This document shows positions 39,801-53,836 of a DNA stretch of 64,000 nt, in pieces. Position numbers and translations under genes: made by a program. The notes beneath the pieces were generated by a model. It searched no databases. It was not told the DNA's origin and worked only from the letters and a program-made list of their open reading frames with translations. The stretch's first letter is position 1. Each line of letters opens with the position of its first letter. The stretch comes from Prevotella communis (GTDB lineage: Bacteria > Bacteroidota > Bacteroidia > Bacteroidales > Bacteroidaceae): NCBI RefSeq assembly GCF_022024115.1, contig NZ_CP091792.1:744001-808000 (forward strand), in the 5' to 3' direction.

Positions 39801-39937
39801 GTGTACGTCTTTATGCTTCAGCCCAGAACCTGCTGACCATCAAGAGCAGCAAGTTCACGGGTGTCGATCCTGAGAATCCTGGCTTCGGCTATCCAATCCC
39901 TCTCAACCTCACATTCGGCATGAATGTATCGTTTTAA
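36818..39937 (+). CDS. SusC-type TonB-dependent receptor (fructan)
   Basis: From MKQSKRVFLSF the protein is 1039 residues. After the signal peptide (STLMYA-QTE) comes a carboxypeptidase-regulatory-like domain (ITGTVIDDFGDGVIGATV, YVGYQTQDV; residues about 25-100). A TonB box-like LQEVVVTGYTTQR follows, then the plug (GRVPGMNISADG, VRIRGLGTLNNNDPLYIIDGVP, SIQVLKDAASASIYGSRAANGVIIITTK in pieces), and a 22-strand-type barrel ending LNLTFGMNVSF. It imports oligosaccharides together with the SusD partner encoded 30 bases downstream. The fructan assignment comes from the flanking GH32 enzymes and fructokinase. It has its own promoter and operator-like repeat. Confidence 0.95.
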   Translation: MKQSKRVFLSFLTLMLSTLMYAQTEITGTVIDDFGDGVIGATVKEKGTANGTVTDLVGNFKIKVKAGAILSISYVGYQTQDVPAQNGMKVQLQPDDKVLQEVVVTGYTTQRKADLTGAISTVSIDEIAKQNENNPMKALQGRVPGMNISADGNPSGAATVRIRGLGTLNNNDPLYIIDGVPTKSGMHELNGNDIESIQVLKDAASASIYGSRAANGVIIITTKRGKEGKVRVDFDGSVAASFYAHKIETLNARQFGQALWQANINDGKNPNNNIVGYNFDWGYDQNGHPQLYGVTMDNYLDANGTVHAGDTDWFDEVTRTGIVQQYNLSVSSGSEKGSSFFSMGYYDNKGTIKESEFSRLSARANTEYKLLDGIVTIGENFTLNRTKGTDAPGDILRNALQFSPNFPIYAENGEYAQPVEAFPERENPLSMLSRTKDNEYTMWRIFGDAHISITPFKNFMIRSTVGLDYSQKQQRNFQYPVANGKIANSETAAEMRQEHAQRWMWNAIATYNLEIGKHRADAMIGTELNRTDDNWSNARRYGMAVLTTDYMWPTAGSGRQVAEGSGGGFSLVSFFGKANYTYNDTYMASFTLRRDGSSRFGKNNRYGTFPSASAGWRITQEKFMEGTRSWLDDLKVRYSWGMTGNQEISNTARFTMYAPVVTTELWNGEAPAGTVYDITGSNGGTNLPSGYIRKQIGNEDIKWETTTQHNIGLDFALKGNEIYGSFDWFNKKTTDILVEMKGLGTQGEGSSQWINAGEVKNVGWEFSLGYRHKQANGFSWDITGNISKYTNEVTKLPETVAAAGTYGGNGVFSIIGHPMYSEVGYVADGLFRTQEEINNHASQEAAGLGRIRYLDVVKDGTINESDQAWIYDPTPDFTWGLNIYLQYKDWDLSMFWQGVQGVDVNCYDYKTQTDFWTNTYDKVNLPYLNKGTRVLDAWSPANPGSDIPALSTRDVANEGRLSSYYIEDGSFAKLRTIQLGYNLPKSLVNKLKMERVRLYASAQNLLTIKSSKFTGVDPENPGFGYPIPLNLTFGMNVSF

Positions 39938-39967
39938 TTGATAACAGACAATCGAAATATGATAATT

Positions 39968-41728
39968 ATGAAGACTATATATAAAGCATTTTTCGCATGT
40001 TGTGCGCTTGGTGGTTTAACTTCTTGCTCTGACTTCCTCGACGACCAACTGCCACAGGCTACACTGACCGAGGAACAAGCAAAGGATCCTGCTAACGCAG
40101 ACAACATCCTTACCTCTGCATATGCCGGACTGGTAACCATCGAGGATATGAACGCCTCGTTCTCCTTGTGGAACTACGACACGCGCTCGGACGATGCATA
40201 TGTTGGTGGTGCCGACCATTCTGATGGTACTCCTTTCCATAACCTGGAGCTATGTACCGGTGTGATGACCACCGACTGGAACTTCAGTTCCATCTGGACC
40301 AGACTCTATAAGTATTTGTCGCGCGTTAATCTTTGTCTTAATGTGCTGTCGAATGGCAATCAGGACGATGCAGCCGTTCAGGAGCGCATAGCAGAGATGC
40401 GCTTCCTGCGTGCCTACGGTCACTTCCAGCTGAAGCGCTTGTTCAAGAAGATTCCTTTTGTCAACAAGCCTAATCTGGGGGAAGAAGATATTAAGAATAT
40501 CTCAAATACCGAATACACCAACGACGAAGGTTGGATGCAGATCATCGAGGACTTGAACTACGCCTACGAGCATCTGCCTCAGACGCAGGCCGACAAAGGT
40601 CGCCCCAACAAGTCTGCTGCCGCTGCCTTCCTCGCCAAGGCTTATCTCTACAAGGCCTACCGCCAGGACGATGCCAACAGCAATCAGGTAACCAGCATCA
40701 ATGAGGACGACCTGAAGAAAGTGGTGGAATACACCGAGCTCACCCTGTATCGTGGCTACGACCTTGAGGGCGACCTGCACAACAACTTCCGTCCTGAAGA
40801 AGCCTACGAGAATGGCAAGGAGAGCATCTGGGCCATTCAGTATTCAAAGAACGACGGTACGAACTACGGTAACCTGAACTTCTCAAACCGTCTGATTCCA
40901 CCTGAGCTTGAAGGTATCCTGGGCGGTTGCGACTTCTACAAGCCCTCACACAATTTGGTGAATGCCTACAAGACCGACTTCGAGGGCCATCCCATGTTTG
41001 ATGAGGCTAATGCCACAGACTATGCTGTGCTTGTAGGCAAGACCGTCGGCAACAGCCAGACTGTTGATCCACGACTCTTTATCACCGTGGGCATGCCCGG
41101 TACACAGTTTATGTTCAATCCCAGTCCCAAACTTACCATTGGTGAGGGCAAGCCTTGGAGTCGTTCTAATGGCAACTATGGCAATTTCATCTCCCTCAAG
41201 CAGTGCGTTGACCCCGACCTGACAGATAAGTACATCTTCAATGCAGACAACCAGTGGGCCACATCAATGAACCGCATCGTGTTCCGCTATGCCGACGTGC
41301 TGCTGATGCGTGCAGAGGCACTGGCACAACTGAACCGGACTGGCGAGGCTATTCAGCTGGTGAACAAACTGCGCAATCGCGCCAAGAGCATGCAGTCAAG
41401 CAGTGTTGTGGCCAACTATCCCAGTACGCTGAACGTACGTTACAATGTGAAGCCCTACGAAGGCACTTACGACAAAGCCAAGACATTGAGTATTGTCAAG
41501 ATGGAACGTCGTCTGGAACTGGCTATGGAGTGCGAGCGCTTCTTCGACTTAGTGCGTTGGGGCGAAGCAGCCAGCGTGATCAATAACTTCTATGCCACCG
41601 AGAGCAAAAGTGCCAAATTCCTTGAAGGTGCACAATTCGTGGCCGACAAGAACGAATACCTGCCTGTGCCTCACGAGCAGATGGCTGCCTCTAATGGAAA
41701 GTACACTCAGAACTGTGGTAATTGGTAA
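39968..41728 (+). CDS. SusD-type surface glycan-binding lipoprotein (fructan)
   Basis: From MKTIYKAFFACC the protein is 586 residues with a lipoprotein signal (GGLTSC then SDFLDDQ). It shows the RagB/SusD features: a helical start with AYAGLVTIEDMNASF, a TPR-like segment EMRFLRAYGHFQLKRLFKKIPFV, and the C-terminal block MNRIVFRYADVLLMRAEALAQ ... VKMERRLELAMECERFFDLVRWG, ending EYLPVPHEQMAAS. It forms the lid of the SusC transporter. Earlier in-frame starts at 39938 (TTG) and 39959 are possible, but the signal peptide is best from 39968. Confidence 0.95.
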   Translation: MKTIYKAFFACCALGGLTSCSDFLDDQLPQATLTEEQAKDPANADNILTSAYAGLVTIEDMNASFSLWNYDTRSDDAYVGGADHSDGTPFHNLELCTGVMTTDWNFSSIWTRLYKYLSRVNLCLNVLSNGNQDDAAVQERIAEMRFLRAYGHFQLKRLFKKIPFVNKPNLGEEDIKNISNTEYTNDEGWMQIIEDLNYAYEHLPQTQADKGRPNKSAAAAFLAKAYLYKAYRQDDANSNQVTSINEDDLKKVVEYTELTLYRGYDLEGDLHNNFRPEEAYENGKESIWAIQYSKNDGTNYGNLNFSNRLIPPELEGILGGCDFYKPSHNLVNAYKTDFEGHPMFDEANATDYAVLVGKTVGNSQTVDPRLFITVGMPGTQFMFNPSPKLTIGEGKPWSRSNGNYGNFISLKQCVDPDLTDKYIFNADNQWATSMNRIVFRYADVLLMRAEALAQLNRTGEAIQLVNKLRNRAKSMQSSSVVANYPSTLNVRYNVKPYEGTYDKAKTLSIVKMERRLELAMECERFFDLVRWGEAASVINNFYATESKSAKFLEGAQFVADKNEYLPVPHEQMAASNGKYTQNCGNW

Positions 41729-41751
41729 TAAGAACATTTAAACTCAATATT

Positions 41752-43161
41752 ATGAAGACTAAAATATTTAATATCATCTGTGCACTGATGGTTGCCTGCG
41801 GGTTTGCTGCCTGCTCAGACGATCATACAGGCAGTCTCAGCGTCGGTGGCGATTGTCTGGTGCAGAAGTTCGTGCTTAACGACCAGTACGAAGCAACCAT
41901 CGACATGGCCACCAAGCTGATCAAAGTGAAGGTGCCCGTCGATTTTACCGCTAAGAACGACATGGTTGTCACCAGCATGATTGTTTCGCCAGGAGCATCC
42001 AGCAATATCAAGCAGGGCGACCATATCAATGTGGAAGCCGACCAGACCTTGCGCATCACCAATGGCGACCTGATGATGGAATATCGCATTGCCGTGCGCA
42101 ATGACGAGGCCAAGCTCTATAACTTCTACCTTTCAGGCATCAAAGGTGCCATCAACGAAGAAGACAAAACCATCACCGTCTATGTGCTGGGCATCAGTGG
42201 CATCGACCTGAGCAATGCTTCCTTCACTGTAGATAATAGCGAGGATGCTGTCAGTTTCCCGGCCAGCGGTTCGACTGCCGATTTTAGCGATCCGAACAAT
42301 CCGTTCCAGCTCACGCTGAACGATGGTACGGCTACTAATACATATACCGTGAAGATCGTGCTGATCGATAAACCTGTAGCCATCTTCGCAGGCAACGCAG
42401 CTAATGTCGATGAACTGAAAGACGAAGAGAAGGCTGCTGCCAAATGGCTGACCAGCAATATTCAGGGCTCGGCTTATGTCTCTTGGGAACAGATTGCCAA
42501 CTTCGACGGTCTGCTGGACGAGTGTAAGTTCATCTTCTTCCATCGCCAGACAGGTGCTTATACCTCCTTCTCTGGATTTGAGGGAGGCGAGAAGAGTGCC
42601 ATGGATGCTCTGCCAAAACTGAAGGAATACTGGAAGAAGGGTGGCGCTTTCGTGCTGCAGCGCATGGGTGTTAACCTGGCAGCAGCGTTAGGTGCTATGC
42701 CACAAGACGGTTGTCCTAACAACTGTTGGGGTGGCAATGGCGAAGGTGGTCCACAGATGGGGGATGATCCCTGGACGTTGCCTGTCTTCGACAAGAACCA
42801 TGCTTTGTGGCAAGGACTTGTTGTCAACCCTGCCAATCCCGAAGCCATTTACACGCTTGATAAGGATTACACCATCTGTAACTCAGCATCTCAGTATCAC
42901 TGGGACGGCGTTTCCGACGAAGCCCTCTATCAGAAGTTCGACGAAGTGACTGGTGGTAAGGCTCGCCGCCTGACCGGACATGGCAACGAGATATCCTCTT
43001 GGGAGTTGAAGAATTACGATGGCAATTTCGGAAAGGGTGGTATCATCTGTTTCGGTGCCGGTCTGCTCGACTGGTATTCTCCCACCGACTATACCTCTGT
43101 TTACCATGAGAACATGGGCAAGATTCTGATGAATGCCTATCATTATCTCACCGGTGAATAA
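41752..43161 (+). CDS. DUF4960 surface lipoprotein, fructan-binding candidate
   Basis: From MKTKIFNIIC the protein is 469 residues, with a lipoprotein signal (CGFAAC-SDDHTGS). Two Ig-like beta domains come first (residues about 25-115 and 116-205; MEYRIAVRNDEAKLYNFYL and NTYTVKIVLIDKPVAIF at their ends). A larger alpha/beta domain follows with SAYVSWEQIANFDGLLDECKFIFFHRQ, WKKGGAFVLQRMGVN and GKGGIICFGAGLLDWY. That domain has a DUF4960 / ThuA-like glutamine-amidotransferase-fold character and no clear catalytic triad. In Bacteroides fructan loci this position encodes a levan/inulin-binding surface protein, which is the likely role. It is between susD and the GH32-like gene. Confidence 0.82.
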   Translation: MKTKIFNIICALMVACGFAACSDDHTGSLSVGGDCLVQKFVLNDQYEATIDMATKLIKVKVPVDFTAKNDMVVTSMIVSPGASSNIKQGDHINVEADQTLRITNGDLMMEYRIAVRNDEAKLYNFYLSGIKGAINEEDKTITVYVLGISGIDLSNASFTVDNSEDAVSFPASGSTADFSDPNNPFQLTLNDGTATNTYTVKIVLIDKPVAIFAGNAANVDELKDEEKAAAKWLTSNIQGSAYVSWEQIANFDGLLDECKFIFFHRQTGAYTSFSGFEGGEKSAMDALPKLKEYWKKGGAFVLQRMGVNLAAALGAMPQDGCPNNCWGGNGEGGPQMGDDPWTLPVFDKNHALWQGLVVNPANPEAIYTLDKDYTICNSASQYHWDGVSDEALYQKFDEVTGGKARRLTGHGNEISSWELKNYDGNFGKGGIICFGAGLLDWYSPTDYTSVYHENMGKILMNAYHYLTGE

Positions 43162-43195
43162 TCAATAACTGTCTAACCTTATATAATAGAACAAT

Positions 43196-44815
43196 ATGAA
43201 CACTAAAAGCATAAAAAAATTGTCCCACACAATGACAGTGATGAGTTTTTGCTTGGCGGCCATTGCACTCTTTTCCTGCTCTGACGACAAGATTATAGGC
43301 GATCCCGGCAAGGACTGGAATAGCAGCGAAGAGCGTTATTCGCCTGTTGACGAAGATGCTTTTTTGACCTACTTTAAGCCCGCACTTGGACGCGTAGGCG
43401 ACCCCATGCCGTTCTACGACCAGAAGGCAGGCAACTTCAAGGTGCTCTATCTGCAAGACTATGATGACAATGCCAAGTATTGTTTCCACCCCTATTGGGG
43501 CGTTCAGACCACCGATGGATGTAACTATCAGTCGATTGGCGAGGTGCTGGCAGTAGGTAGCAACGACTATCAGCAGGATGCTGCGCTTGGCACTGGCTGC
43601 TGTTATTATAACGAGAGTGAAGGTCTGTACTATATTTACTACACTGGCGAGAACGCCGACTGTAAGGATCGCCAGGTGGTAATGCGTGCCACATCACCCG
43701 ACTTCAAGACCTGGACGCGCGACAATCTTTGGCAGCTCCATGGTTCCGACTATGGCTATTCTGGCTGGGACTTCCGCGACCCACAGATCTTCGTGGCCGA
43801 CGACGGTCTCTATCACATGGTCATCTCTACCAAACCTTCCTACGGTGGCGATCCCAAGTTCGCCGACTTCAAGTCTGCCGATATGAAGAACTGGGAGCAC
43901 GTCGGTCAGTTCAACATGGTGTGGGAGCGCATGTGCGAATGCCCCGATGTGTTTAAGATGGGCGACTGGTGGTATCTCGTGTTCAGCGAGGGACAGGCAG
44001 TCAACTGGAGCCGCAAGGTGAAGTATGTCAAGGCCAAGAGCTGGGACGAGCTGAAGACTTGCCTCAACGACCCCAAGGTGTGGCCCGACTATAAGGAAGG
44101 CGTGCTCGACAGTCGTGGTTTCTATGCCGGCAAGACGGCCTCAAACGGCACCGACCGTTATATTTGGGGATGGTGCCCATACCGTTCTGGCGCAGATATC
44201 GATGCCAAGAATGTCAATGTGGGTGCTGGCGGCGAGCCAAACTGGGGTGGTGCGCTGGTTTGCCACAAGATTATCCAGCACGAAGACGGTACCATCTCAC
44301 TCGGCGAGGTGCCTGCCATGGCAGCCAAGTACAACAAGCAGCAGGCGCTTCAGGTGGTGGCTAGCAATGGTTACGCCAATAGTCAGCTCACTGGCGAAGG
44401 CGCCTATGTGATGTTCGGCCGACTGGGCACCTGCAACCACATCAGCATGACGGTGAAGACCGAAGGCAATGCCGACAGATTCGGCATCTCGCTGGTTCGC
44501 AGTGTCGATGCCAAGAAGTACTATACGCTGATGGTAAACCCCGAGGCCGGTGGCGAAAAGCGCAAGGTGAACTTCGAGCAGGAGGGCGAGGAAGGCAAGG
44601 GCTTCATCGAGGCAATCGATGGCTACGAGGTTCCACGTCCTGAGGATAATACCTATCAGATTGATATCTACACCGACAACTCCGTTTGTGTGATGTACAT
44701 CAACGACAACGTCTGCTACACCAACCGCATCTATGGCATCCAGAAAAACTGCTGGAGCATCAACAACTATGGTGGTAACATCACCATTAGCGACTTGAAG
44801 ATCAGTCAGCAGTAA
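43196..44815 (+). CDS. Divergent GH32-like surface lipoprotein (candidate endo-fructanase)
   Basis: The 539-residue lipoprotein (AAIALFSC, Cys28) has a five-bladed propeller of clan GH-J. The usual WMNDPNG is missing; in its place is GRVGDPMPFYD, whose D69 is the probable nucleophile. The other two catalytic signatures are kept: DFRDPQIF (D195) and ECPDVF (E248 as acid/base). A C-terminal sandwich (about residues 390-539; YVMFGRLGTCNHISMTVKT, YTDNSVCVMYINDNVCYTN) resembles DUF4975. The extra Cys pair near 135-136 is unusual. Surface location and position in the locus suggest an endo-acting levanase or inulinase supplying the SusC/D importer; loss of activity with retained binding is the alternative. 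Confidence 0.82.
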   Translation: MNTKSIKKLSHTMTVMSFCLAAIALFSCSDDKIIGDPGKDWNSSEERYSPVDEDAFLTYFKPALGRVGDPMPFYDQKAGNFKVLYLQDYDDNAKYCFHPYWGVQTTDGCNYQSIGEVLAVGSNDYQQDAALGTGCCYYNESEGLYYIYYTGENADCKDRQVVMRATSPDFKTWTRDNLWQLHGSDYGYSGWDFRDPQIFVADDGLYHMVISTKPSYGGDPKFADFKSADMKNWEHVGQFNMVWERMCECPDVFKMGDWWYLVFSEGQAVNWSRKVKYVKAKSWDELKTCLNDPKVWPDYKEGVLDSRGFYAGKTASNGTDRYIWGWCPYRSGADIDAKNVNVGAGGEPNWGGALVCHKIIQHEDGTISLGEVPAMAAKYNKQQALQVVASNGYANSQLTGEGAYVMFGRLGTCNHISMTVKTEGNADRFGISLVRSVDAKKYYTLMVNPEAGGEKRKVNFEQEGEEGKGFIEAIDGYEVPRPEDNTYQIDIYTDNSVCVMYINDNVCYTNRIYGIQKNCWSINNYGGNITISDLKISQQ

Positions 44816-44837
44816 GAGATTATTTGCGACAAATAAG

Positions 44838-44888
44838 AAAAAACGTTCAAGGTGGCGTAAAAATGTTACCCTGAACGTTTTTTTTTTA
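44838..44888 (+). terminator. Terminator of the fructan susCD operon
   Basis: Arms AAAACGTTCA-AGGT and ACCC-TGAACGTTTT close a loop and are followed by a run of more than eight T. The arms contain ACGTTCA, so similarity to the operator motif may be chance. Confidence 0.85.
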
Positions 44889-44931
44889 TTCTATGAAACA
44901 TTATTGATAGTACTTATTGTAATTTGATACT

Positions 44932-44939
44932 AATTTTGC
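44932..44939 (+). promoter_or_regulatory. Promoter of the 305-residue secreted protein
   Basis: TAATTTTG on the plus strand, 41 bases before the start codon. Confidence 0.6.
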
Positions 44940-44979
44940 AGCAACCAAAAACAATATTAACTCTAAAACAACAACGCTT

Positions 44980-45897
44980 ATGAAAAAAGTATTTTTACTC
45001 GCAATGCTCTTCGCAGCAACAGTTTGTAACGCACAGGTAGTTCTCTGGGACGGAACGGACAAGGAAGTCGGTTCGGACGGTGGTTTCTGGAACCGTGCAG
45101 ATCCTACTGTAGTAGAAGAAGATGGCAACAAGATAATGAAGTTCACGCTGAAGGCTAACCCTGGTGGCTGGAACGACGAGCACCACAACGCAGCACTGCC
45201 TGTTGGCGATGTAGACTTCAAGGCACTGCGCCGTTTGACCATGCGCCTGAAAATGACTGATGCACACAATGTACTGGTACAGCTTGAGGGTAAGGATGGT
45301 GCCTATAATGCTGAGCGTATAGCATGGTACAATGGTGGTGACGGATGGCAGGTTATGGTTTATGAGTTCGCTGCCGGTCCTGACAACGAAAAGGTTACGG
45401 ATAATGGTAATAATGTGCTGGCTATCTGGCCTTTTGAAAAGACGCCTCAAGGTGAAGGTAAAACCTTCTATGTCGATGATATCAAATTTGAGGGTACGAT
45501 GGTGAATGGCAAGGGTATTCTTGCATGTGCCGACAATTCGCTGACAGGTGAAGTCAAGGTGACTGGTGTCATTGGCAAGGGCACCTATCAGTGTACATGG
45601 GATGGCGACTGGCATCCGGAGGCTTACGACGACTATGCTCTGCTGGCTAAGAAACTGGCTTCTACAGCTACTGTTCTCGACGTCTCAGAAGCTGGCCGTT
45701 GGGACGAGGACTGGACAGCCATTCAGACTAAGTGTCCTGGCATCGTCATCCGTACCGATGCTACTGGCATTGCCAATGTAGCAAAGAGCCAAGAGCAAAC
45801 TGCCAACAGCCAGTACTTCAACCTCGCTGGTCAGCGCGTTGCTCATCCTGCTAAAGGCCTGTATATCGTCAATGGAAAGAAGGTTATTGTTAAATAG
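44980..45897 (+). CDS. Secreted beta-sandwich protein with C-terminal sorting-like tail
   Basis: The 305-residue protein has a signal peptide (LFAATVCNA-QVV). A carbohydrate-binding-like beta sandwich follows (residues about 20-170; VLWDGTDKEVGSDGGFWN, LRRLTMRLKMTDAHNVLVQL, FYVDDIKFEG), then a short alpha/beta part and the tail YFNLAGQRVAHPAKG + LYIVNGKKVIVK. The order resembles Prevotella secreted glycan-binding proteins. It has its own promoter and terminator and lies directly after the fructan operon, so it may be a fructan-induced accessory binding protein, but no direct link is seen. Confidence 0.7.
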   Translation: MKKVFLLAMLFAATVCNAQVVLWDGTDKEVGSDGGFWNRADPTVVEEDGNKIMKFTLKANPGGWNDEHHNAALPVGDVDFKALRRLTMRLKMTDAHNVLVQLEGKDGAYNAERIAWYNGGDGWQVMVYEFAAGPDNEKVTDNGNNVLAIWPFEKTPQGEGKTFYVDDIKFEGTMVNGKGILACADNSLTGEVKVTGVIGKGTYQCTWDGDWHPEAYDDYALLAKKLASTATVLDVSEAGRWDEDWTAIQTKCPGIVIRTDATGIANVAKSQEQTANSQYFNLAGQRVAHPAKGLYIVNGKKVIVK

Positions 45898-45951
45898 TTA
45901 GGATTGGTTAGTAGTTTTTTTTGATGAAAAGATTTTTAGTTAGTTAGTGTG

Positions 45952-45987
45952 CCGCCCGCGTCTATAGAGACTGCGGGCGGTTTTTTA
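45952..45987 (+). terminator. Terminator after the secreted protein
   Basis: CCGCCCGC / GCGGGCGG stem (with GTCT/AGAC extension) followed by TTTTTTA. Confidence 0.93.
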
Positions 45988-46090
45988 TTGCCAGAGCAGT
46001 TTTTAGAACACCTGGGGACACTCGACCGCCCCCTATGTACTTCTAGTATCTTCTGTAGCTGGGTCGTGCTGCGACGACTGAACTCAATCG

Positions 46091-46336
46091 TTAGAGCCAT
46101 TTCGCAAACATCGTTTTGAATTCACCCATCGAAACTGTCTCGCCACGATCTACGGCAGCTATTTCCTCCTCAATATCTGGAGTCACCTGCAATACGCCGT
46201 CCACGATATTTGCATAATCCATATCTTCAGGAATTGCCAGTACTTCAGGCTCTGCAAATGCCACAGCGGCCTCAGAGGCTTTCATGCAACTGCCGTCCTC
46301 TTCCTCAATACGTGGATATGGTTTACTCTTTTTCAT
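46091..46336 (-). CDS. Small acidic protein, antitoxin-like
   Basis: The 81-residue protein starts MKKSKPYPRIEEEDG and ends PDIEEEIAAVDRGETVSMGEFKTMFAKWL. The C-terminal block, with 'DRGETVS...F...W', resembles the end of Phd/RelB-type antitoxins and of similar small Bacteroidetes genes. No toxin gene lies next to it. A promoter-like TATTTTTG (minus, 46362-46369) precedes it by about 25 bases. It stands at the left edge of the accessory region. Antitoxin is a guess from the C-terminal pattern only; an orphan regulatory protein is equally possible. Confidence 0.55.
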   Translation of the reverse strand: MKKSKPYPRIEEEDGSCMKASEAAVAFAEPEVLAIPEDMDYANIVDGVLQVTPDIEEEIAAVDRGETVSMGEFKTMFAKWL

Positions 46337-46361
46337 GACGATTATCTTTCATATTTTCTGC

Positions 46362-46369
46362 AAAAATAC
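46362..46369 (-). promoter_or_regulatory. Promoter of the antitoxin-like gene
   Basis: TATTTTTG on the minus strand, 26 bases before the start at 46336. Confidence 0.6.
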
Positions 46370-46517
46370 GACAAAAGAATGATACTTCCAAATTTATCTT
46401 CCACAAATCTTCGATTCACATCGCACTTTTCTGATTATTGAATAGTATAGTTCGCAAATGGATGAATGCAGAGGTTTTTAGGAGTCACTTGATGTCACAG
46501 ATTGTGATTTCAAGTCT

Positions 46518-46544
46518 TTTGCGGTCGCAATTCGCGACCGCAAA
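46518..46544. repeat. Inverted repeat GCGGTCGC/GCGACCGC
   Basis: TTTGCGGTCGC-AATTC-GCGACCGCAAA, an 11-bp perfect inverted repeat. A second looser one lies just upstream (CTTGATGTCACA / TGTGATTTCAAG, about 46488-46514). The 527-base gap 46337-46863 holds these, the antitoxin-like promoter, the transposase remnant and the nuclease promoter. Confidence 0.85.
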
Positions 46545-46559
46545 GTATTCCACTCTTAT

Positions 46560-46691
46560 TTAGTAAGTAAAACATCTGATGTGATGACAGAAGACTGTGA
46601 TGGCAGGTGTCAGTCCCCTGCCATCTTTCCTGAGCTCGTAGTTAGGGATGAGAGACATCAGTTGCGAGAATACAGTATTTCCGGCATTCAT
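46560..46691 (-). pseudogene. IS4-family transposase, N-terminal remnant
   Basis: The minus-strand frame reads MNAGNTVFSQLMSLIPNYEL, a good match to my recollection of the N-terminal (DUF4372) start of IS4-family transposases in Bacteroidetes. It then runs into unrelated residues (RKDGRGLTPAIT...) and stops after 43 codons. A full transposase would have about 350-400. A promoter-like TATCTTTG (minus, about 46729-46736) still stands upstream. The rest of the element is gone, and no terminal inverted repeats were found. Confidence 0.6.
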
Positions 46692-46840
46692 ATCCTGTGC
46701 TATCTTATATATGAGACAGTACAAAGATACAAAATCAAATCGGAAAATTTTAAAATCGCTGTATCTCATTGATAATTAAGTATTTAGTTAACGTTCTAAA
46801 AAATATTACCGGACACTAGTGATTCTCCATTTATATTTTG

Positions 46841-46848
46841 TATCTTTG
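46841..46848 (+). promoter_or_regulatory. Promoter of the zinc-repeat nuclease cassette
   Basis: TATCTTTG on the plus strand. With a start about 7 bases on, the leader before the ATG at 46864 is only some 9-10 bases. Confidence 0.65.
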
Positions 46849-46863
46849 CAAAAAAGTTAGGCT

Positions 46864-48567
46864 ATGAGAAGAAAGACAAATGAACAGTTCATTAAAGATG
46901 CTAAATTAATATGGGGTAATCGCTATGATTATTCACATGTGGTATATACCAATTCCAAGAATAAAGTACTGATTAGGTGTATTGAACATGATGAACTATT
47001 TGAACAAACTCCCTTCTGCCATGTTGTTATGAAAAGAGAAGGATGCCCAAAATGCCAAGAAATTGGGAAGGAAAAAAGTCGAAAGAAAAGGGCTTTGTCA
47101 ACAGAAGAATTTATCCGTAGATCAAAAGTAAGGTTTGGTGAAAAGTTTAATTATTCATGTACAAAGTATGTCAATCAAAATACTAGTATTGAAATAATCT
47201 GTCCTATAAATGGGCATGGCAGAGTAAAGATGTCACCGCAGGCCCATTTAAATTCTGATTATGGTTGCCCAAAATGTGCTCGTGAACATTGCCAGAATAG
47301 CCGGAAAATTAGCAAAGATGAGTTTTTAATAAGGGCAAAGAACAAATATGGGAACGGCTTTGACTATTCAAAAATCGAATATGTAGGGTATGAAAAACCC
47401 ATCATCATTTATTGCAATGAGCATGGATATTTCCAAACCACACCATTTTACCATTTGCTTACAGATAATGGTGGTTGTAAAGAATGCGCAAAAGAATCAG
47501 TAGCGAAAGCTATAAGAAAAATGACTACGGCCGAGTTTATAGATAAAGCTCGTGAGATACATGGGGATCTGTTCGACTACTCCTATACCAAATATGCTTC
47601 ATACAAGAAAAAACTCAAAATTAGATGTCCTAAACACGATTTTGTTTTTGAGATGCTTCCTCAAACCCATCTCAACGGAAAGGGGTGTCCAATTTGCGAT
47701 TTGGACAAACTAACAGATTACGAGAAAAGAAGAGATGTTGCATTGGCAGAGCGCAAGACTTTTAGAGAGAGACAAGCATTAAAGCGAGAGAGGAGTAATA
47801 GACTCCTTGCAGGGAAACCTGCAGGCATAGCTTATGGCGTCGAAGAGTTTTTGCGCCTAGCGCATTTAATTCACGATGATGACTTTGACTACAGATATGT
47901 AAAATCACAATACGTAAATCTTAATACACCTGTAACTTTTATTTGCAAGCGGCACAATAAAGAATTTTCTCAAACTCCAATAAAACATCTTAGAGGACAG
48001 GGATGCCCTAGATGTATTGGAAGATTACGTACAACAGAATCCTTTATTGAAGAGGCAAAAGAAGTACATGGTGACAGATACTCTTATGAGCATGTTAGAT
48101 ACAAAGATTGTGGAACAAAAGTTTCTATCACATGTAAAGAACATGGTGATTTTGATATGATTCCGGTGGAACATTTACGTGGCAAGGGATGCCCTGATTG
48201 TTCAACATCAATTTTGGAAACTCAAGTTCAGGTTTTCCTTCAAACTCATCTTGATGTAGAATTTGAAACACAAGCACAATTCCCTTGGCTCAAAACGACA
48301 AGAACAATGCCACTTGATATTTATATTCCCCAATATCATGTTGCAATAGAGTGTCAAGGTGCTCAACACTTCGCAGAAAGAGGAAGATATGAAGATTTAA
48401 AAGTTCGACAAAAGAAAGACAGACTAAAATATGATCTTTGCAAAGAACATGACATAACGGTTCTATACTATGCTAAAACGACTTATGAAGTCCCTAAAGA
48501 CTATTGGGCCAATGTGTATATAAGGTTAGATGACTTATATGAGGCCATTATGGCCTCGAAGCATTAA
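46864..48567 (+). CDS. Six-repeat DUF723-like zinc-binding protein with EDxHD-type nuclease domain
   Basis: The 567-residue protein has six copies of a ~60-residue unit, F(I/L)xxAxxxxGDxYDYSxxxY...IxCxxHGxFxxxPxxHLxGxGCPxC. They start near residues 8, 82, 153, 224, 328 and 393, each with a C-x(3-5)-H and a CxxC (e.g. C61/C64, C135/C138, C205/C208, C275/C278, C381/C384, C443/C446). A charged helix (285-318) separates units 4 and 5. The last domain (450-567) has E452, D485 (PLDIYIP), E496 and H502 (IECQGAQHF) and D519 (KKDRLK), the order of EDxHD homing and Vsr-like PD-(D/E)XK nucleases. The base composition is AT-rich compared with the flanks. The next gene starts 15 bases on. Homing endonuclease or defence nuclease are both possible. 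Confidence 0.75.
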   Translation: MRRKTNEQFIKDAKLIWGNRYDYSHVVYTNSKNKVLIRCIEHDELFEQTPFCHVVMKREGCPKCQEIGKEKSRKKRALSTEEFIRRSKVRFGEKFNYSCTKYVNQNTSIEIICPINGHGRVKMSPQAHLNSDYGCPKCAREHCQNSRKISKDEFLIRAKNKYGNGFDYSKIEYVGYEKPIIIYCNEHGYFQTTPFYHLLTDNGGCKECAKESVAKAIRKMTTAEFIDKAREIHGDLFDYSYTKYASYKKKLKIRCPKHDFVFEMLPQTHLNGKGCPICDLDKLTDYEKRRDVALAERKTFRERQALKRERSNRLLAGKPAGIAYGVEEFLRLAHLIHDDDFDYRYVKSQYVNLNTPVTFICKRHNKEFSQTPIKHLRGQGCPRCIGRLRTTESFIEEAKEVHGDRYSYEHVRYKDCGTKVSITCKEHGDFDMIPVEHLRGKGCPDCSTSILETQVQVFLQTHLDVEFETQAQFPWLKTTRTMPLDIYIPQYHVAIECQGAQHFAERGRYEDLKVRQKKDRLKYDLCKEHDITVLYYAKTTYEVPKDYWANVYIRLDDLYEAIMASKH

Positions 48568-48582
48568 AACATTATTATTTTT

Positions 48583-49791
48583 ATGAAACAGTATTTAGAA
48601 TTACTGGACAGAGTTCTTGGCAATTCCAAAACTCTTAGTAAAATTGAGTTTGAAAAAGAGTACAAAGGAAATCCAATTCAAATTATCCTTAGTGCTCCAC
48701 TTGTCTTCAATGACTCAATGAGCCTATATAGAGGTAGGCTTGCTGATGATGTTGGGAAAAAAGAAGATTTGTCAAGCCCTGCAACGTTTTCTTATGTTCC
48801 CCTTGTGTTGAACAAAGATGGACTGCCAAAAATGGGAAGGGCTAACTATAAGGGGCAGTCTATCTTCTATGCATCTGAGCAAATGAAGACTAATTTCAAG
48901 GAGATTAGTAAAGACAGTAATATAGGCGATGAGGCATATATGGCGAAATGGAAACTCAAGCCTAATTCAAATCTTTGTTTGTATCGTACAATACCTGCAT
49001 GGGGAATTAATACAGATAATGAGCCTAATAGCATCTTCACGATAACAGAACCTAATATCGTTAATAGCGAATTAGGAGTTTATTTGAAACGTTTAGGCTA
49101 TATAATGATGTCAACTGAAGAGATTGGAAAGTATCTAGGCTCTTCGTATATTGCGAATTGTATTTATTCTGCTAATGGTTTTGCCAAAGATTCAGCTGGA
49201 AACAAATATGAAATTCATTATGATGGTATTATTTACCCCAGTGTTGCCTCTGGTGGAACGGAAGAGGTAAATATCGCACTAAAACCAGAATTCGTAGACA
49301 AGAACCTTGAACTTGAATGTGTAATCAAAGGACGCTTAGCTCCAGATATGCGGTCTGTGAAATATGAAAAAATTGGAATCAATGAAAATGGAAAAATCGT
49401 ATGGTATACATCTTTTATAGACGAGGATTCTATTATGAATATTGTTACTCAATATTATGGCTCTGATGGAAATAATGTTGATGTATCAAAAGGAAAGATT
49501 CTTGATGCTGACAATAATGTCGTTTCAGAGTTGATACCATTGGTTCATGCTTTAAAATTTCATCGTGATGAAGTGTTTAATGCTTTGGCGCAATTTATAC
49601 AGACAGAAGTTAAGGAGAACCAAACGGTAACGAAAACATCTTTGGAAAAGAGTGTGAATCTAGGCCTCATTCGAGAATTTAATGGTTGGAAGTTACTTAG
49701 TGGCGGAAAGAGTACACCACTAAGTAAAGTCATGTATTCTTTCACATTGAAGAACCAGTTAAGAGAAATTATAACTGACGAAGTGAGATAA
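48583..49791 (+). CDS. Unknown protein with possible RES-like N-terminal region
   Basis: The 402-residue protein is not recognised with certainty. Residues 47-110 show SLYRGRLADD, then MGRANYKGQSIFYASEQMKTNFKEI. This resembles the RES domain pattern (an Arg early, then GR-x-N-x-x-G-x-x-(I/L)-Y-x-A ... E), with R50/R52, R86, Y97 and E107 as possible equivalents. RES proteins are NAD+-degrading toxins. The middle (about 185-290) is beta-rich, with YDGIIYPSVASGGTEEVNIALKPEF, and the C-terminal 80 residues look helical and positively charged. There is no signal peptide. It is 15 bases after the nuclease gene and shares its AT-rich composition, so the two form one cassette. The RES call is tentative. 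Confidence 0.5.
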   Translation: MKQYLELLDRVLGNSKTLSKIEFEKEYKGNPIQIILSAPLVFNDSMSLYRGRLADDVGKKEDLSSPATFSYVPLVLNKDGLPKMGRANYKGQSIFYASEQMKTNFKEISKDSNIGDEAYMAKWKLKPNSNLCLYRTIPAWGINTDNEPNSIFTITEPNIVNSELGVYLKRLGYIMMSTEEIGKYLGSSYIANCIYSANGFAKDSAGNKYEIHYDGIIYPSVASGGTEEVNIALKPEFVDKNLELECVIKGRLAPDMRSVKYEKIGINENGKIVWYTSFIDEDSIMNIVTQYYGSDGNNVDVSKGKILDADNNVVSELIPLVHALKFHRDEVFNALAQFIQTEVKENQTVTKTSLEKSVNLGLIREFNGWKLLSGGKSTPLSKVMYSFTLKNQLREIITDEVR

Positions 49792-50004
49792 ATTGTTTGC
49801 AATTGACGATGCCAGATCTAGGAACACCTGGTGTCCGCTGCTGCTCCGACATACCTTAATTATTCTCAAAAACAGCCACAAAATTACTCATAAAACCTCA
49901 GAATTTATCAGAAATGACTAATTTTGCAACATTGTTTAAGTAAAAAGGTCTTGGTAGTTTAGAGCCCCTTGATAAGGGGCGGCTATAATGCAGGGATTAA
50001 GAGT

Positions 50005-50127
50005 ATGAAGAAAGTAATGTTTTTGCTGGCAGTAGGAGTGATGTGCCGCAGTTCGCGACTGGCTGTTCAGACAAAGCAAATAGACCTTGGCAAATCCAAA
50101 CCGACAGATGAAAAGATTATATATTGA
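50005..50127 (+). pseudogene. Truncated signal-peptide ORF, 40 residues
   Basis: ATG at 50005 gives MKKVMFLLAVGVMCRSSRLA and 20 further residues before TGA. The start looks like a secreted protein, but the body is only a fusion into the start of the next gene, with which it overlaps by 20 bases. It is probably the 5' remnant of a lost exported gene; a leader peptide is the other option. Upstream, 49792-50004 holds a short hairpin (GCCCCTT-GAT-AAGGGGC, 49964-49980) and no gene. Confidence 0.4.
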
Positions 50128-51403
50128 GCGTTTCTACTTGAATAGGGCCGATGACGAGTACCCTATGACAGTGCGCATCATCCTGCAGATGAGGGATGGC
50201 GTGGACGGGCATCTGCTCGAAGAAGCAGTGGCAGCAGCACAGACGAGATACCCTTACCTGTGTGTCAAACTTGGTGTCGAACGCGATGCTGACGGCAACG
50301 AGCACTATGTCTATCACGACAATCCACAGCCTTGGAAAGTCAATGGCTGCCGACAGCCGGTATGTTTGTGCAGTGAAGAAGCCAACGAACATCTGATGGC
50401 TTTTTCATGGTGGGACGATTGCGTGGCATTGGATTTCTTTCATGCGCTCATCGACGGGACTGCCGCCTATCGCATCCTCAAGACATTGCTCTATGAATAC
50501 TGCCGGCGACGCTACGATAGTGAGTTAGACCCTGCAGGAGTCTGGGTGGCAGGTGACATCATCGACGAGGCAGAGTGGACTGATCCTGCCACACTGCCAA
50601 GACCAACGAGCATCCACCCGCAGCAGCTGCCTGAACGTCCTAAGGTTATCAATCTGGCCACCGATGCCATCGTACCCCTTGCTGATAAGAAAGAAGTGGT
50701 ACAGATACGCATCTCTGAGGAGCAGATGATGAAGCGTGTGCGGGCATGCGGTGCCACGCCTACTTCTTTCCTAACCCTGCTTCTGGCAAGAGCCATCGCT
50801 CGTCTGCATCCAGAGAGTGCGCCTCTGGCACCAACCGTTACAGTAGCAGTTGATTTGAGAAAGACACTCGGAACCACTGCGGCACACCATTCACAAGTAG
50901 GCGGACTGTTCCTGCCACTGGGGCAAGATATGCGGCAGGCGGACTTTGATACTCAGATAGCAGCTTTCCGCAAGATGATAGCCGAGCAGACTTATCCAGA
51001 CAACCTGCAAGACTATTTCTGGCAGACCCAAGACCGGATGGAAAGGGTGGAACAGCTGCCCACGCTTCAAGCCCGCTATCAGGCCTTTGCTCCGACAAAC
51101 CAACTGAGCCAGCAGTACGGTTCATGCATGTTCAGCTATGTAGGGAAGGCTGGTCTTGGTGCTGCCGAACAATATATCAGGGAGATGCGCACGGAGACCG
51201 ACTCTGCCTATATGATTGTAGTGGAAGTAAGTGCTGCCGCAGGTGTTTTCAGCATCAGTTTCATGCAGCGTTTTGCAACCGATGTATATCTTGATACGTT
51301 CCTCGACGAGCTGCATCAGCAGGGGCTGACTTACGAGATTCCAGACCGTCATCCGCTACAGATAGCCCCCATTGCCGATTATCGAAATGCTAAGCCGAAA
51401 TGA
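50108..51403 (+). CDS. Condensation/alcohol-acyltransferase-like enzyme
   Basis: The best start is the ATG at 50108 (MKRLYIERFYLNRADD), giving 431 residues; a TTG seven codons earlier also fits. The protein belongs to the CoA-dependent acyltransferase/condensation superfamily. It has a HxxxDG active site in FFHALIDGTAAYRILKTLLYEY near residues 110-130, and a second-half pattern (VAVDLRKTLGT, SQVGGLFLPLGQ) as in the alcohol O-acetyltransferase branch. The substrate cannot be told. It is translationally coupled (ATGA overlap) to a YjbR gene. It has no signal peptide and is expected to be cytoplasmic. Confidence 0.75.
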   Translation: MKRLYIERFYLNRADDEYPMTVRIILQMRDGVDGHLLEEAVAAAQTRYPYLCVKLGVERDADGNEHYVYHDNPQPWKVNGCRQPVCLCSEEANEHLMAFSWWDDCVALDFFHALIDGTAAYRILKTLLYEYCRRRYDSELDPAGVWVAGDIIDEAEWTDPATLPRPTSIHPQQLPERPKVINLATDAIVPLADKKEVVQIRISEEQMMKRVRACGATPTSFLTLLLARAIARLHPESAPLAPTVTVAVDLRKTLGTTAAHHSQVGGLFLPLGQDMRQADFDTQIAAFRKMIAEQTYPDNLQDYFWQTQDRMERVEQLPTLQARYQAFAPTNQLSQQYGSCMFSYVGKAGLGAAEQYIREMRTETDSAYMIVVEVSAAAGVFSISFMQRFATDVYLDTFLDELHQQGLTYEIPDRHPLQIAPIADYRNAKPK

Positions 51404-51750
51404 ATATAGAAGACTATCGCGAGTATTGCCTGTCGTTAGGCGAAGACATAGAAGAGAAACTGCCTTTTCAGAAGTTCAAGAACGGAGAGGGAGTATTGGT
51501 GTTTTACGTAGCAGGACACATGTTCTCATTCTTCGATTGCAATGATTTCTCCGTTATCTCGCTGAAATGCCAGCCAGAACGCATTGAAGATCTTAAGGCA
51601 CAGTATGAGTGTATCGGGAACCCGTACAACGAATCACCCAAACACTGGATAGGCATTAATCCAACGACAGCCCCTGATGATCTGCTGAAGGAACTGACTC
51701 GAAACTCATACAAGGTAGTCAAGGCGAAATATACGAAAAAAAAGATATGA
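51400..51750 (+). CDS. MmcQ/YjbR family protein
   Basis: The 116-residue protein has the full MmcQ/YjbR (DUF419) pattern: MNIEDYREYCLSLGEDIEEKLPF at the start, a middle FYVAGHMFSFFDCNDFSVISLKCQPERIEDLKAQY, and GIGNPYNESPKHWIGINPTT-like block before LTRNSYKVVKAK. The family has a CyaY-like double-wing fold; DNA binding has been proposed but the role is unclear. The ATGA overlap with the acyltransferase stop means coupled translation. Length is normal for the family. Confidence 0.9.
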   Translation: MNIEDYREYCLSLGEDIEEKLPFQKFKNGEGVLVFYVAGHMFSFFDCNDFSVISLKCQPERIEDLKAQYECIGNPYNESPKHWIGINPTTAPDDLLKELTRNSYKVVKAKYTKKKI

Positions 51751-51839
51751 AACTGTTATTATCCTTATTATTGACTGTGGCCAGTCTTTCAGCTTTTGCA
51801 CTTGAAAATAGATTAATCAATGGTAAACAATACAAATAA
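51747..51839 (+). pseudogene. Truncated signal-peptide ORF, 30 residues
   Basis: ATG at 51747 overlaps the YjbR stop (ATGA) and gives MKLLLSLLLTVASLSAFALE then NRLINGKQYK and TAA. This is a clear signal peptide with a ten-residue body. The start of the ORF6N gene (51820) lies inside it. It looks like a secreted gene whose body was replaced when the ORF6N gene inserted, so the insertion point is near 51820. Confidence 0.55.
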
Positions 51840-52778
51840 AAAGAATCATAAAAAGGAACTGGTCGCAAAATGCGACCAGTCCAAGGAGGTGGTTGCAAAT
51901 TGTGATAACCTTCAAGAAACCAATCTCAGTCAATATGATATTGAGAAGCTAATTGTTACAGTAAGAGGTGAGCAAGTGCTTATAGACCAAGATATTGCAA
52001 GGCTTTATGGAGTAACGACAAAACGTCTTAATCAACAGGCAAAGCGTAATATTGAAAGGTTTCCTGAGTCTTTTCGTTTTGAATTGACAAAAGAAGAAGT
52101 TGGCGAGGTGGTTGCAAATTGTGACCACCTCCAGTCTTTGAAGTTTCGTCCCACCTTACCTTATGCTTTTACAGAGCAGGGAATAGGACAACTTTCAAGC
52201 GTTGTGCATAGTAAAATTGCTATAGAAAGGAGCATTACTATTATGAATGCTTTCGTGGCTATGCGACGTTTTATGGTTCAGAATGCTGGCATACTGATGC
52301 GAATCGCTCATCTGGAAAGACAACAGATAGAGACTGACGAGAAGATCGACAAGATTCTCAACAGAATGGACGAACAATCGCCCAAACTCCTGCCAGAGCA
52401 GATTTTTGCCACTGGTTGCAGTGGGATGCATGGACGTACGTATCTGACTTAGTGAGGAGTGCTAAGCAGCGCATAGTGCTGATAGATAACTATGTAGACG
52501 ATCGAGTGCTTTCGCTTTTGGATAAGCGAGCTGATGATGTGGAAGCTATGATTAATAGCCGCTATTACGAGCCGTTCCTGGTGGATCTGAAGAAGCATAA
52601 TGAGCAGTATCGTGAAATTAAGTTCATACAATTGCCACAAAGGAACCATGATAGATTTTTGATTATCGACGATGATGTCTATCTGCTTGGTGCCAGCGTG
52701 AAGGATATGGGCGCAGGCATGTGTGCTGTTACGAAGATGGAGGTGTCGCCAGAAACTGTATTGCAATTATTGAAGTAA
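51820..52778 (+). pseudogene. ORF6N-domain protein, frameshifted, with PLD-like C-terminus
   Basis: Two overlapping frames belong to one gene. Frame one (51820-52452) carries an ORF6N DNA-binding domain (YDIEKLIVTVRGEQVLIDQDIARLYGVTTKRLNQQAKRN) and a coiled-coil (LERQQIETDEKIDKILNRM). It ends soon after PEQIFATGC. Frame two (52416-52778) continues WDAWTYVSDLVRSAKQRIVLIDNYVDD ... RNHDRFLIIDDDVYLLGASVKDMG, a PLD/HKD-like end with the basic residue changed (HDRF). The break is at about 52415-52422 (GGTTGCAGTGGG), where one base seems to be missing. The motif VAxCDxxxE is repeated three times near the N-terminus. Such genes are phage- or island-borne. Confidence 0.8.
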
Positions 52779-52854
52779 CGGCCATGAGATCAAGTAAATA
52801 AAAAAGTAAACAAAATTACGGGCCTTAAAAATGGCCAGTTAACTAATTTAATCG

Positions 52855-52914
52855 TTTGAGTTAACTAAAATCATCAATCGAGTTAAATCAAATCATGATT
52901 TTAGTTAACTCAAA
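52855..52914. repeat. 20-bp perfect inverted repeat
   Basis: TTTGAGTTAACTAAAATCAT (52855-52874) and its complement ATGATTTTAGTTAACTCAAA (52895-52914) with a 20-base loop. Short AGTTAACT and GAGTTAA copies lie nearby (52837, 52880). The 248-base gap between the ORF6N gene and murQ holds nothing else that I can identify. It may be a terminator for both converging genes, or the scar of an element. Confidence 0.88.
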
Positions 52915-53026
52915 ATTTTAGGGGTGTTTTAGGGGGATTTTAGGGATATTAAAAAATATCTTACAAGGCAACTTGATTACGGCAATTGTTCAGTCGCTCG
53001 TTCAGTATCTCGAACAGTTCTTCTGT

Positions 53027-53836
53027 TTATTTATTGTTTAATACGCCATCCACGCTGCCTGCCTCCAGCAGACGGCGTTCGGCTTCTTCATAGGAGATGC
53101 CAAGCGACTCCTGAATCATGCGGGTGCCGCGGTCTACGAGCTTGGCATTTGTGAGCTGCATCTTCACCATGCGGTTACCCTCTACACGTCCCATGCGTAT
53201 CATCAGCGTGGTGGAAATCATGTTGAGCACCATCTTTTGTGCTGTGCCGCTTTTCATACGACTGGAGCCTGTGACGAACTCAGGGCCTACAATCGTTTCA
53301 ATGGGAAAAGCAACGGCCGAGGCAAGGGGCGTTTCTGGGTTGCTGGTGATGCAACCAGTAAGCAGTCCGTGCTGACGGGCTTCACGAACGGCACCTATGA
53401 CATAAGGCGTGGTGCCGGAAGCGGCAATGCCTATCACGGTGTCGTCTGCTGTAGGCTGGAAAGACGCGAGGTCCTTCCAACCTTGTTCAGCAATATCTTC
53501 AGCGTTTTCTACGGCGTGGCGTAACGCCTTGTCGCCACCAGCAATGAGTCCAATCACCCAGTCTTCTGGCACACCAAAGGTAGGAGGCAGTTCGCTGGCA
53601 TCGAGCACACCCAGACGGCCGCTGGTGCCTGCGCCCACATAGAAGAGTCGGCCTCCACGTTTCATCCTTGGCTCAATAGCTTCCACCAAAGCCTGAATCT
53701 GCGGCATAGCCTTGTGTACAGCCTCTGCCACCAGCATATCCTCTTCGTTGATATGTTGGAGCAACTCAGCTACCGACATCTGTTCCAGGTGATCGTAGCG
53801 TGAAGGCTGTTCGGTGATTTTATTTTCTATCTTCAT
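53027..53836 (-). CDS. murQ: N-acetylmuramic acid 6-phosphate etherase
   Basis: The 269-residue SIS-domain enzyme splits the lactyl ether of MurNAc-6-P to give GlcNAc-6-P, recycling cell-wall sugar. Family motifs are visible: TEQPSRYDHLEQMSVAELLQHINEED at the start, LFYVGAGTSGRLGVLDASELPPTFG (residues about 64-88), GLIAGGDKALRHAVENAED, VIGIAASGTTPYVIGA and VTGSSRMKSGTAQKMVLNMIST. It is about 25-30 residues shorter than E. coli MurQ, at the C-terminus. It starts 16 bases after the metalloprotease gene, so they may share a transcript. Confidence 0.96.
   Translation of the reverse strand: MKIENKITEQPSRYDHLEQMSVAELLQHINEEDMLVAEAVHKAMPQIQALVEAIEPRMKRGGRLFYVGAGTSGRLGVLDASELPPTFGVPEDWVIGLIAGGDKALRHAVENAEDIAEQGWKDLASFQPTADDTVIGIAASGTTPYVIGAVREARQHGLLTGCITSNPETPLASAVAFPIETIVGPEFVTGSSRMKSGTAQKMVLNMISTTLMIRMGRVEGNRMVKMQLTNAKLVDRGTRMIQESLGISYEEAERRLLEAGSVDGVLNNK

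Follow-up and report, generated by a model that had tools for sequence, protein, structure and literature searches.

Several described systems come close to the locus presented here. In excerpts of PMC3710099, the restriction system PrrI holds the toxin PrrC quiet until a phage disables PrrI, and links to restriction systems are described for at least 16 clades of HEPN toxins. Known phage defences that target NAD engage TIR or SIR2 domains, as stated in the excerpt of PMC11535050. RES itself has been named among the NAD enzymes of prokaryotic immune systems (PMC9503650, in part). Both the toxin role of RES and its part in prokaryotic immunity (excerpts of PMC9503650 and PMC11535050), as well as the idea of toxins encoded behind restriction systems, are already in print. 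Searches of an open-licence library yielded no description of RES genes associated with EDxHD nucleases or located downstream of BREX, Dnd, Pbe, MmeI or Mrr. In the main text of PMC11834463, which deals with rumen defence systems, the terms RES and NADase are absent except for a journal name in the references.

The window, i.e., the whole stretch of 64,000 nucleotides that was analysed, belongs to the contig NZ_CP091792.1 of Prevotella communis. Two ORFs placed head to tail and separated by 15 bases make up most of an AT-rich island. We give even chances to the reading that this island is a two-gene defence module, in which a DNA-cutting nuclease would be joined to a portable NAD+-degrading RES effector in a two-level defence comparable to that of PrrC. 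This reading draws on both domains, recognized by sequence and predicted fold, on their conserved active sites, on the island, on the swapped partners of the RES gene and on its defence neighbourhoods. The features of the window are located as follows:

46043..49831, no strand: island (about 46043-49831), GC 0.369 versus 0.486 for the whole window, missing in the same-species genome G233
46841..46848, + strand: candidate Bacteroidetes-type -7 promoter box TATCTTTG, 5' of the nuclease gene, found by a search for the pattern TANNTTTG
46864..48567, + strand: nuclease gene, encoding six units of the treble-clef/DUF723-DUF4379 type followed by an EDxHD (Vsr-fold) nuclease domain at the C-terminus
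48205..48564, + strand: EDxHD nuclease domain, spanning roughly residues 448-567 and carrying E452, D485, H502 and D519
48583..49791, + strand: RES-domain gene, 402 aa
48709..49359, + strand: RES domain, about residues 43-259 (VIA-align ranges), with R50, R52, R86, Y96, E107, S220 and N230
49360..49788, + strand: C-terminal beta-rich extension of the RES protein, about 140 residues, from the secondary structure of the model
48583..49814, + strand: exchange unit, 97.4% DNA identity to locus L002, beginning at the start codon of RES and ending 23 bases after its stop codon

BLASTN revealed an empty allele in G233 (locus L025), where the equivalent of window 38001-46042 (99.5%) directly adjoins that of 49832-53028 (93.8%), the junctions of the island being accurate to within a few bases. 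The first-pass annotation had described a compositionally foreign patch, which the GC of 0.37 and the absence from this same-species genome bear out. The nuclease has no match in G233 at E <= 1e-50, and it is also missing from 39 of 40 genomes that were searched as those of relatives; the remaining one is the genome of the window itself. The flanks are unequally diverged from G233 (99.5% on the left versus 93.8% on the right), as if recombination had imported the island together with one flank. Since the pattern assumed for the Bacteroidetes-type -7 box occurs frequently across the window, TATCTTTG is a possible, weak candidate for the promoter of the nuclease gene. Rfam gave 0 matches in 45000-51000.

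The nuclease would bind DNA through its zinc-finger array and cut it through its Vsr/EDxHD domain. The best structural matches of the model of this domain are I-Bth0305I and Vsr, and fold comparison and residue conservation indicate that the EDxHD catalytic fold and residues are present. The two-gene cassette with a six-unit EDxHD nuclease, as first described, is thus confirmed by six treble-clef-like units and a Vsr/EDxHD domain model. Unlike the EDxHD homing endonucleases such as I-Bth0305I and unlike Vsr, the enzyme described here is chromosomal, belongs to a two-gene island and carries six treble-clef units. It matches phrog_681 (endonuclease) and phrog_559 (HNH endonuclease) in PHROGs, whereas PADLOC gave no match above 15 bits and a sequence profile search of the PDB gave none.

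The EDxHD enzymes are a family of homing endonucleases, mostly from phages (PMC3943268, in part). Furthermore, relatives of the nuclease are common in viral contigs, in which 254 of the 265 candidate stretches encode one, and the related PHROGs families are named endonuclease, HNH endonuclease and homing endonuclease. A selfish homing endonuclease could therefore have landed upstream of an unrelated RES gene with which it would share no function. We regard this origin as unlikely: the best 80 viral relatives share 30-39% identity with the nuclease against 53% for the bacterial relative from G038, G233 lacks the whole 3.8-kb island and not the nuclease gene alone, and in L002 the equivalent position, upstream of a RES gene whose protein is 96% identical, is taken by a second zinc-finger/Vsr-like nuclease.

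Some relatives of the nuclease were found without RES genes. The relative from G038, which is full-length and lies on a 161-kb contig of a bacterial genome, has no RES relative nearby, nor have the partial ones from G263 and G176, 12-18 kb being surveyed. The 80 viral nuclease loci and the three genomic loci L173-L175 together have 744 ORFs, none of which is related to RES at E <= 0.01. The G263 relative is followed by a WYL-domain gene, while the one from G038 is preceded, 56 bases upstream and on the same strand, by the gene of a 342-aa SIR2-like protein, itself preceded by that of an HTH protein:

L173:10296-11324, - strand: SIR2-like protein beside the DUF723/EDxHD nuclease relative, K-[LIV]-N-G motif family

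Among the 120 members of the SIR2-like family listed out of 1408 matches, 113 carry K-[LIV]-N-G-[ST] and two have database entries annotated with PF13289, which we take to be SIR2_2. Sirtuins need a catalytic histidine. Since 113 of the 120 listed members have an asparagine at the position of the sirtuin histidine, this neighbour was rejected as a sure NADase and is retained as a lead. The same longest contig value (63,746) recorded for the nuclease P0112, among the 120 nuclease relatives listed of 2822 matches, and for the SIR2-like protein P0276 is a hint of a second nuclease/SIR2-like pair.

The second protein passes the Pfam RES cut-off narrowly (PF08808, 23.5 bits for a curated cut-off of 23.2), and 26 of the 31 rows of the alignment A1 match RES at E <= 0.01. 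Its model (pLDDT 89.4, pTM 0.83) has eight best matches among solved structures, all of them RES-type toxins: MbcT (11.0), ParT (10.2 and 10.1), NatT (10.1 for two entries), VPA0770 (9.6) and P. putida RES (9.5 and 9.2). The next ones, an insecticidal-protein domain and diphtheria toxin, score 6.3 or less. Foldseek gave no match for the model at E <= 0.001, the RES profile matched no PDB sequence, and PADLOC, NCBIfam and PHROGs yielded no usable name. R50, R52, R86, N88, Y96, E107 and N230 are invariant in the 91 full-length sequences and S220 is found in 90 of them, 15 of the 105 matches being left out of this set (14 under 380 aa and the distant P0105).

The active site of NatT comprises R23, R82, Y93, S184 and N193 (PMC11535050, in part). 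The set R82, Y93, S184 and N193 has its counterpart, in the same order, in R86, Y96, S220 and N230 of the second protein, the correspondence being one of motif order and spacing and not of atom superposition. RES enzymes split NAD+ with phosphate and have Y and N where other members have S and E (excerpt of PMC9503650). A chance match over the 14 residues of the RES motif was rejected on fold and conservation. The resemblance to RES noticed in the first-pass annotation, which a protein devoid of the RES fold would have contradicted, therefore holds: by predicted fold and active-site set, the protein is assigned to the RES family and is predicted to degrade NAD+. It differs from the described RES toxins (P. 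putida RES, MbcT, ParT, NatT) by its C-terminal extension, which is hardly covered by the structural matches of the whole model and is included in the 402-441 aa of the family as called. It also differs in that no Xre-type antitoxin gene is seen, the RES genes being found behind nucleases and restriction systems.

The full-length relatives of this gene occupy nine distinct loci, window included. In all nine, a gene of the same strand lies directly upstream at a short distance:

Window: DUF723/EDxHD nuclease, gap 15
L002: protein of 656 aa combining a Vsr-like core with seven DUF4379 units, gap 84
L003: Mrr-type nuclease, gap 29
G747: DpdF-like helicase, after DndF, DndG and DndH, gap 10
G113: AlbA_2 ATPase, gap 39
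G129: AlbA_2 ATPase, behind a cytosine methyltransferase, MzaC and MzaE, gap 90
G394: MmeI-type IIG enzyme, gap 39
G1247: protein of 153 aa in which no known domain is recognized, downstream of PbeA and PbeC, gap 10
G066: BrxL, gap 17

This small sample was drawn from a contig scan by peptide pattern, from 399, 398, 393, 13, 139 and 45 genomes (overlapping sets that cover part of the family) and from the window, G113, G129, G394 and G1247 being taken as the same loci as L004-L007. In the family, 11 of the 399 genomes match the RES profile, five of them, including the window's, with a full-length protein. No RES relative was found in plasmids and phages, and none of the 28 IMG/VR stretches that fit the pattern was confirmed.

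The nine RES proteins all match one another (36 of 36 pairs, BLASTP E <= 1e-3), whereas their partners do not at the same threshold (PbeC being used for G1247), except those of G113 and G129, which are 90% identical and precede RES proteins that are 99% identical. Within the genes chosen for domain scans at each locus, PADLOC matches of at least 100 bits lie directly upstream of RES in four of the nine loci (L003, G394, G747 and G066) and anywhere upstream on the same strand in six, with G1247 and G129 added; the defence genes concerned are Mrr, MmeI, DndFGH, Pbe, BrxL and Mza. The three others, window included, have no match of 100 bits among the genes scanned. In the close branch of RES (about 69% identity or more), the three partners are all predicted single-protein nucleases, Vsr-type twice and Mrr once. 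The window pair is thus one case of a wider pattern, in which members of the RES family follow genes of several DNA-acting kinds, including many with a known role in defence.

Only this genome yielded the exact pair of nuclease and RES genes. None of the other full-length RES loci encodes a close relative of the nuclease, and conservation of the pair as such was rejected within the genomes searched. For the first-pass annotation, which would be refuted if homologues of the two genes did not occur together elsewhere, the outcome is mixed: close homologues of both are not found together and the 53% identical nuclease of G038 adjoins a SIR2-like protein instead of RES, while in L002 a RES protein of 96% identity is encoded behind a remotely related zinc-finger/Vsr-like nuclease. 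A defence role, as initially suggested, fits the neighbourhoods of the related RES genes; RES, however, is not specific to the DUF723 nuclease. The restriction of the pair to a single genome, the nuclease relatives devoid of RES, the three loci without PADLOC match and the barely passing Pfam score count against the module. So do the negative Foldseek and PDB searches, the lack of an evident antitoxin or immunity gene, the presence of short RES genes near defence genes and the small number of loci, two of which (G113 and G129) have almost the same RES protein.

Comparison of the window with L002 revealed no similarity directly outside the exchange unit, apart from one 150-base match (84%) located far from RES in both. 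Downstream of the RES stop, L002 carries a terminator-like hairpin (-19.4 kcal/mol, z -4.1), whose left arm alone remains in the window. Nearly the same homology borders surround the RES gene of L003 (72%). Since the homology stops at the borders of the RES gene, this gene appears to be the unit exchanged, with replacement of the gene that precedes it. BLASTP detected no similarity between the nuclease core of the window protein and the L002 partner; profile comparison, run against the single L002 sequence, indicates a remote relation (82 columns, probability 91-95%) that leaves the catalytic histidine unaligned. About 3 kb before RES, L002 also harbours a lone broken-off DUF723-like unit (6791-7081, + strand) that is not part of any longer open frame, up to 43% identical to units of the window nuclease (best E about 5e-10). 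It is perhaps the remnant of a DUF723-type nuclease gene.

The dissimilarity of the partners, and the separate travel of RES and partner between the window and L002, would also be expected if RES acted on its own in abortive infection or stasis and accumulated in defence islands without functional coupling to its neighbours, nuclease included. Short distant RES genes are likewise found near defence genes: in 24 loci (251-432 aa), the 20 upstream neighbours of the same strand matched 11 PADLOC families at E <= 1e-20, i.e., about 5-7 proteins, the counts being of families and the protein numbers being read from family names. In this control, the neighbours located on the opposite strand (4 of 24) were dropped, the fragmented L051 and L075 were left out, and L058 and L065 had no upstream ORF. 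For comparison, 100 ORFs from 20 arbitrary stretches matched 30 families at E <= 1e-20 (about 5-6 proteins). These were sampled from 200 ORFs with a minimum length of 200 aa that were called mechanically, some surely spurious, so that the random rate is an underestimate. Long RES genes are thus clearly associated with defence genes, and the distant ones show this association as well. We nevertheless hold an independent RES gene to be rather doubtful, as a direct upstream partner of the same strand in nine of nine full-length loci is tighter than loose clustering, as the exchange begins at the RES start codon and as G113 and G129 share AlbA_2 and RES behind different upstream genes.

Characterized RES toxins have an antitoxin, and the solved complexes RES-Xre, MbcT-MbcA, ParT-ParS and NatRT, like the NatR-NatT pair described in an excerpt of PMC11535050, could suggest an addiction unit, in which RES would be the toxin, the upstream protein its neutralizer and the stabilization of the island its function. 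However, the gene that adjoins RES upstream in the window encodes a predicted nuclease and not an Xre, MbcA or ParS antitoxin, and no antitoxin or immunity gene is evident. With small ORFs and downstream genes covered in part, no Xre/ParS/MbcA-like domain was found in the direct upstream partners scanned (by Pfam for the window, L002, L003, L004, L006 and L007, by PADLOC only for L048 and L049, the G129 partner being outside the scan). An addiction unit would moreover require a neutralizing role for all eight dissimilar kinds of partners, which makes it very improbable.

In the two-level module, by analogy with PrrC, RES probably serves defence systems that target DNA as a suicide arm held in reserve. 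The two genes would be transcribed as an operon and their products physically or regulatorily coupled, with phages as the target. The DNA-acting partner would attack the invading DNA and either keep RES quiet or sense trouble; once it engages phage DNA or is overcome, RES would remove NAD+ and growth would stop or the cell would die. The RES gene would be portable and, in relatives, attached behind different DNA-attacking systems. Such a scheme would account for a RES that stays constant while its partners change, and for the attack on DNA that these partners have in common.

The likeness to PrrC with the type Ic restriction system PrrI and to the HEPN toxins linked to restriction systems (PMC3710099, in part) lies in a self-directed toxin gene linked, as a second line, to a DNA-attacking system, RES standing in an operon-like array with PADLOC defence genes upstream in six of nine loci and behind a predicted nuclease in the window. 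However, the effector is here a RES protein, predicted to act on NAD+, and not an RNase, and the partners include single-gene zinc-finger nucleases. The likeness to TIR and SIR2 defences lies in the expected loss of NAD+ and growth arrest, the difference being the RES domain.

The neighbourhoods of the RES genes suggest that RES is a reusable module of self-shutdown against phages. If so, a single effector family would back several unlike restriction-type systems, and the old idea of a two-level immunity, in which the cell is shut down when the attack on the invader fails, could be tested with one interchangeable part. One and the same RES protein could be combined with BREX, Dnd, MmeI, Mrr or a zinc-finger nuclease in order to search for the signal that these systems share. 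RES, known mainly from toxin-antitoxin pairs, would gain a defined place in phage defence, and homing-type nucleases would have been turned into chromosomal defence enzymes. More tentatively, the long RES lineage could be a general plug-in suicide arm on at least eight DNA-attacking machineries (BREX, DndFGH, Pbe, Mza, MmeI, Mrr, Schlafen-like AlbA ATPases and zinc-finger/Vsr nucleases), reading a state common to all of them through its C-terminal extension, the zinc-finger EDxHD nucleases, otherwise known as selfish homing enzymes, being recruited as chromosomal restriction enzymes.

Other observations concern the surroundings of these loci. In the window, an 81-aa ORF (46091-46336) of the - strand is followed by an overlapping ORF that starts at 46100 and leaves the island across its left junction. 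This pair (45944-46336), which has no Pfam match above cut-off, resembles an antitoxin gene and a cut-off RelE/ParE-type toxin. In the AT-rich region 51820-52778, an ORF of 210 aa is overlapped in another frame by one of 120 aa that begins at 52416; we take them to resemble an ORF6N-type protein and a PLD-like piece, perhaps of a single broken gene. In G113 and G129 (L162 and L163), AlbA_2 and RES lie behind differing upstream genes, the set of G129 being Mza-like with a Schlafen-type helicase, and both genes seem to have moved together. Lastly, the proteins encoded by L160:12213-13625 (- strand), without Pfam match, and L166:8714-10828 (+ strand) share a near-identical N-terminus (MAKRKIKIGLVDADLLCNGTRHPNL) and are encoded ahead of DndFGH-RES in G747 and of Pbe-RES in G1247.
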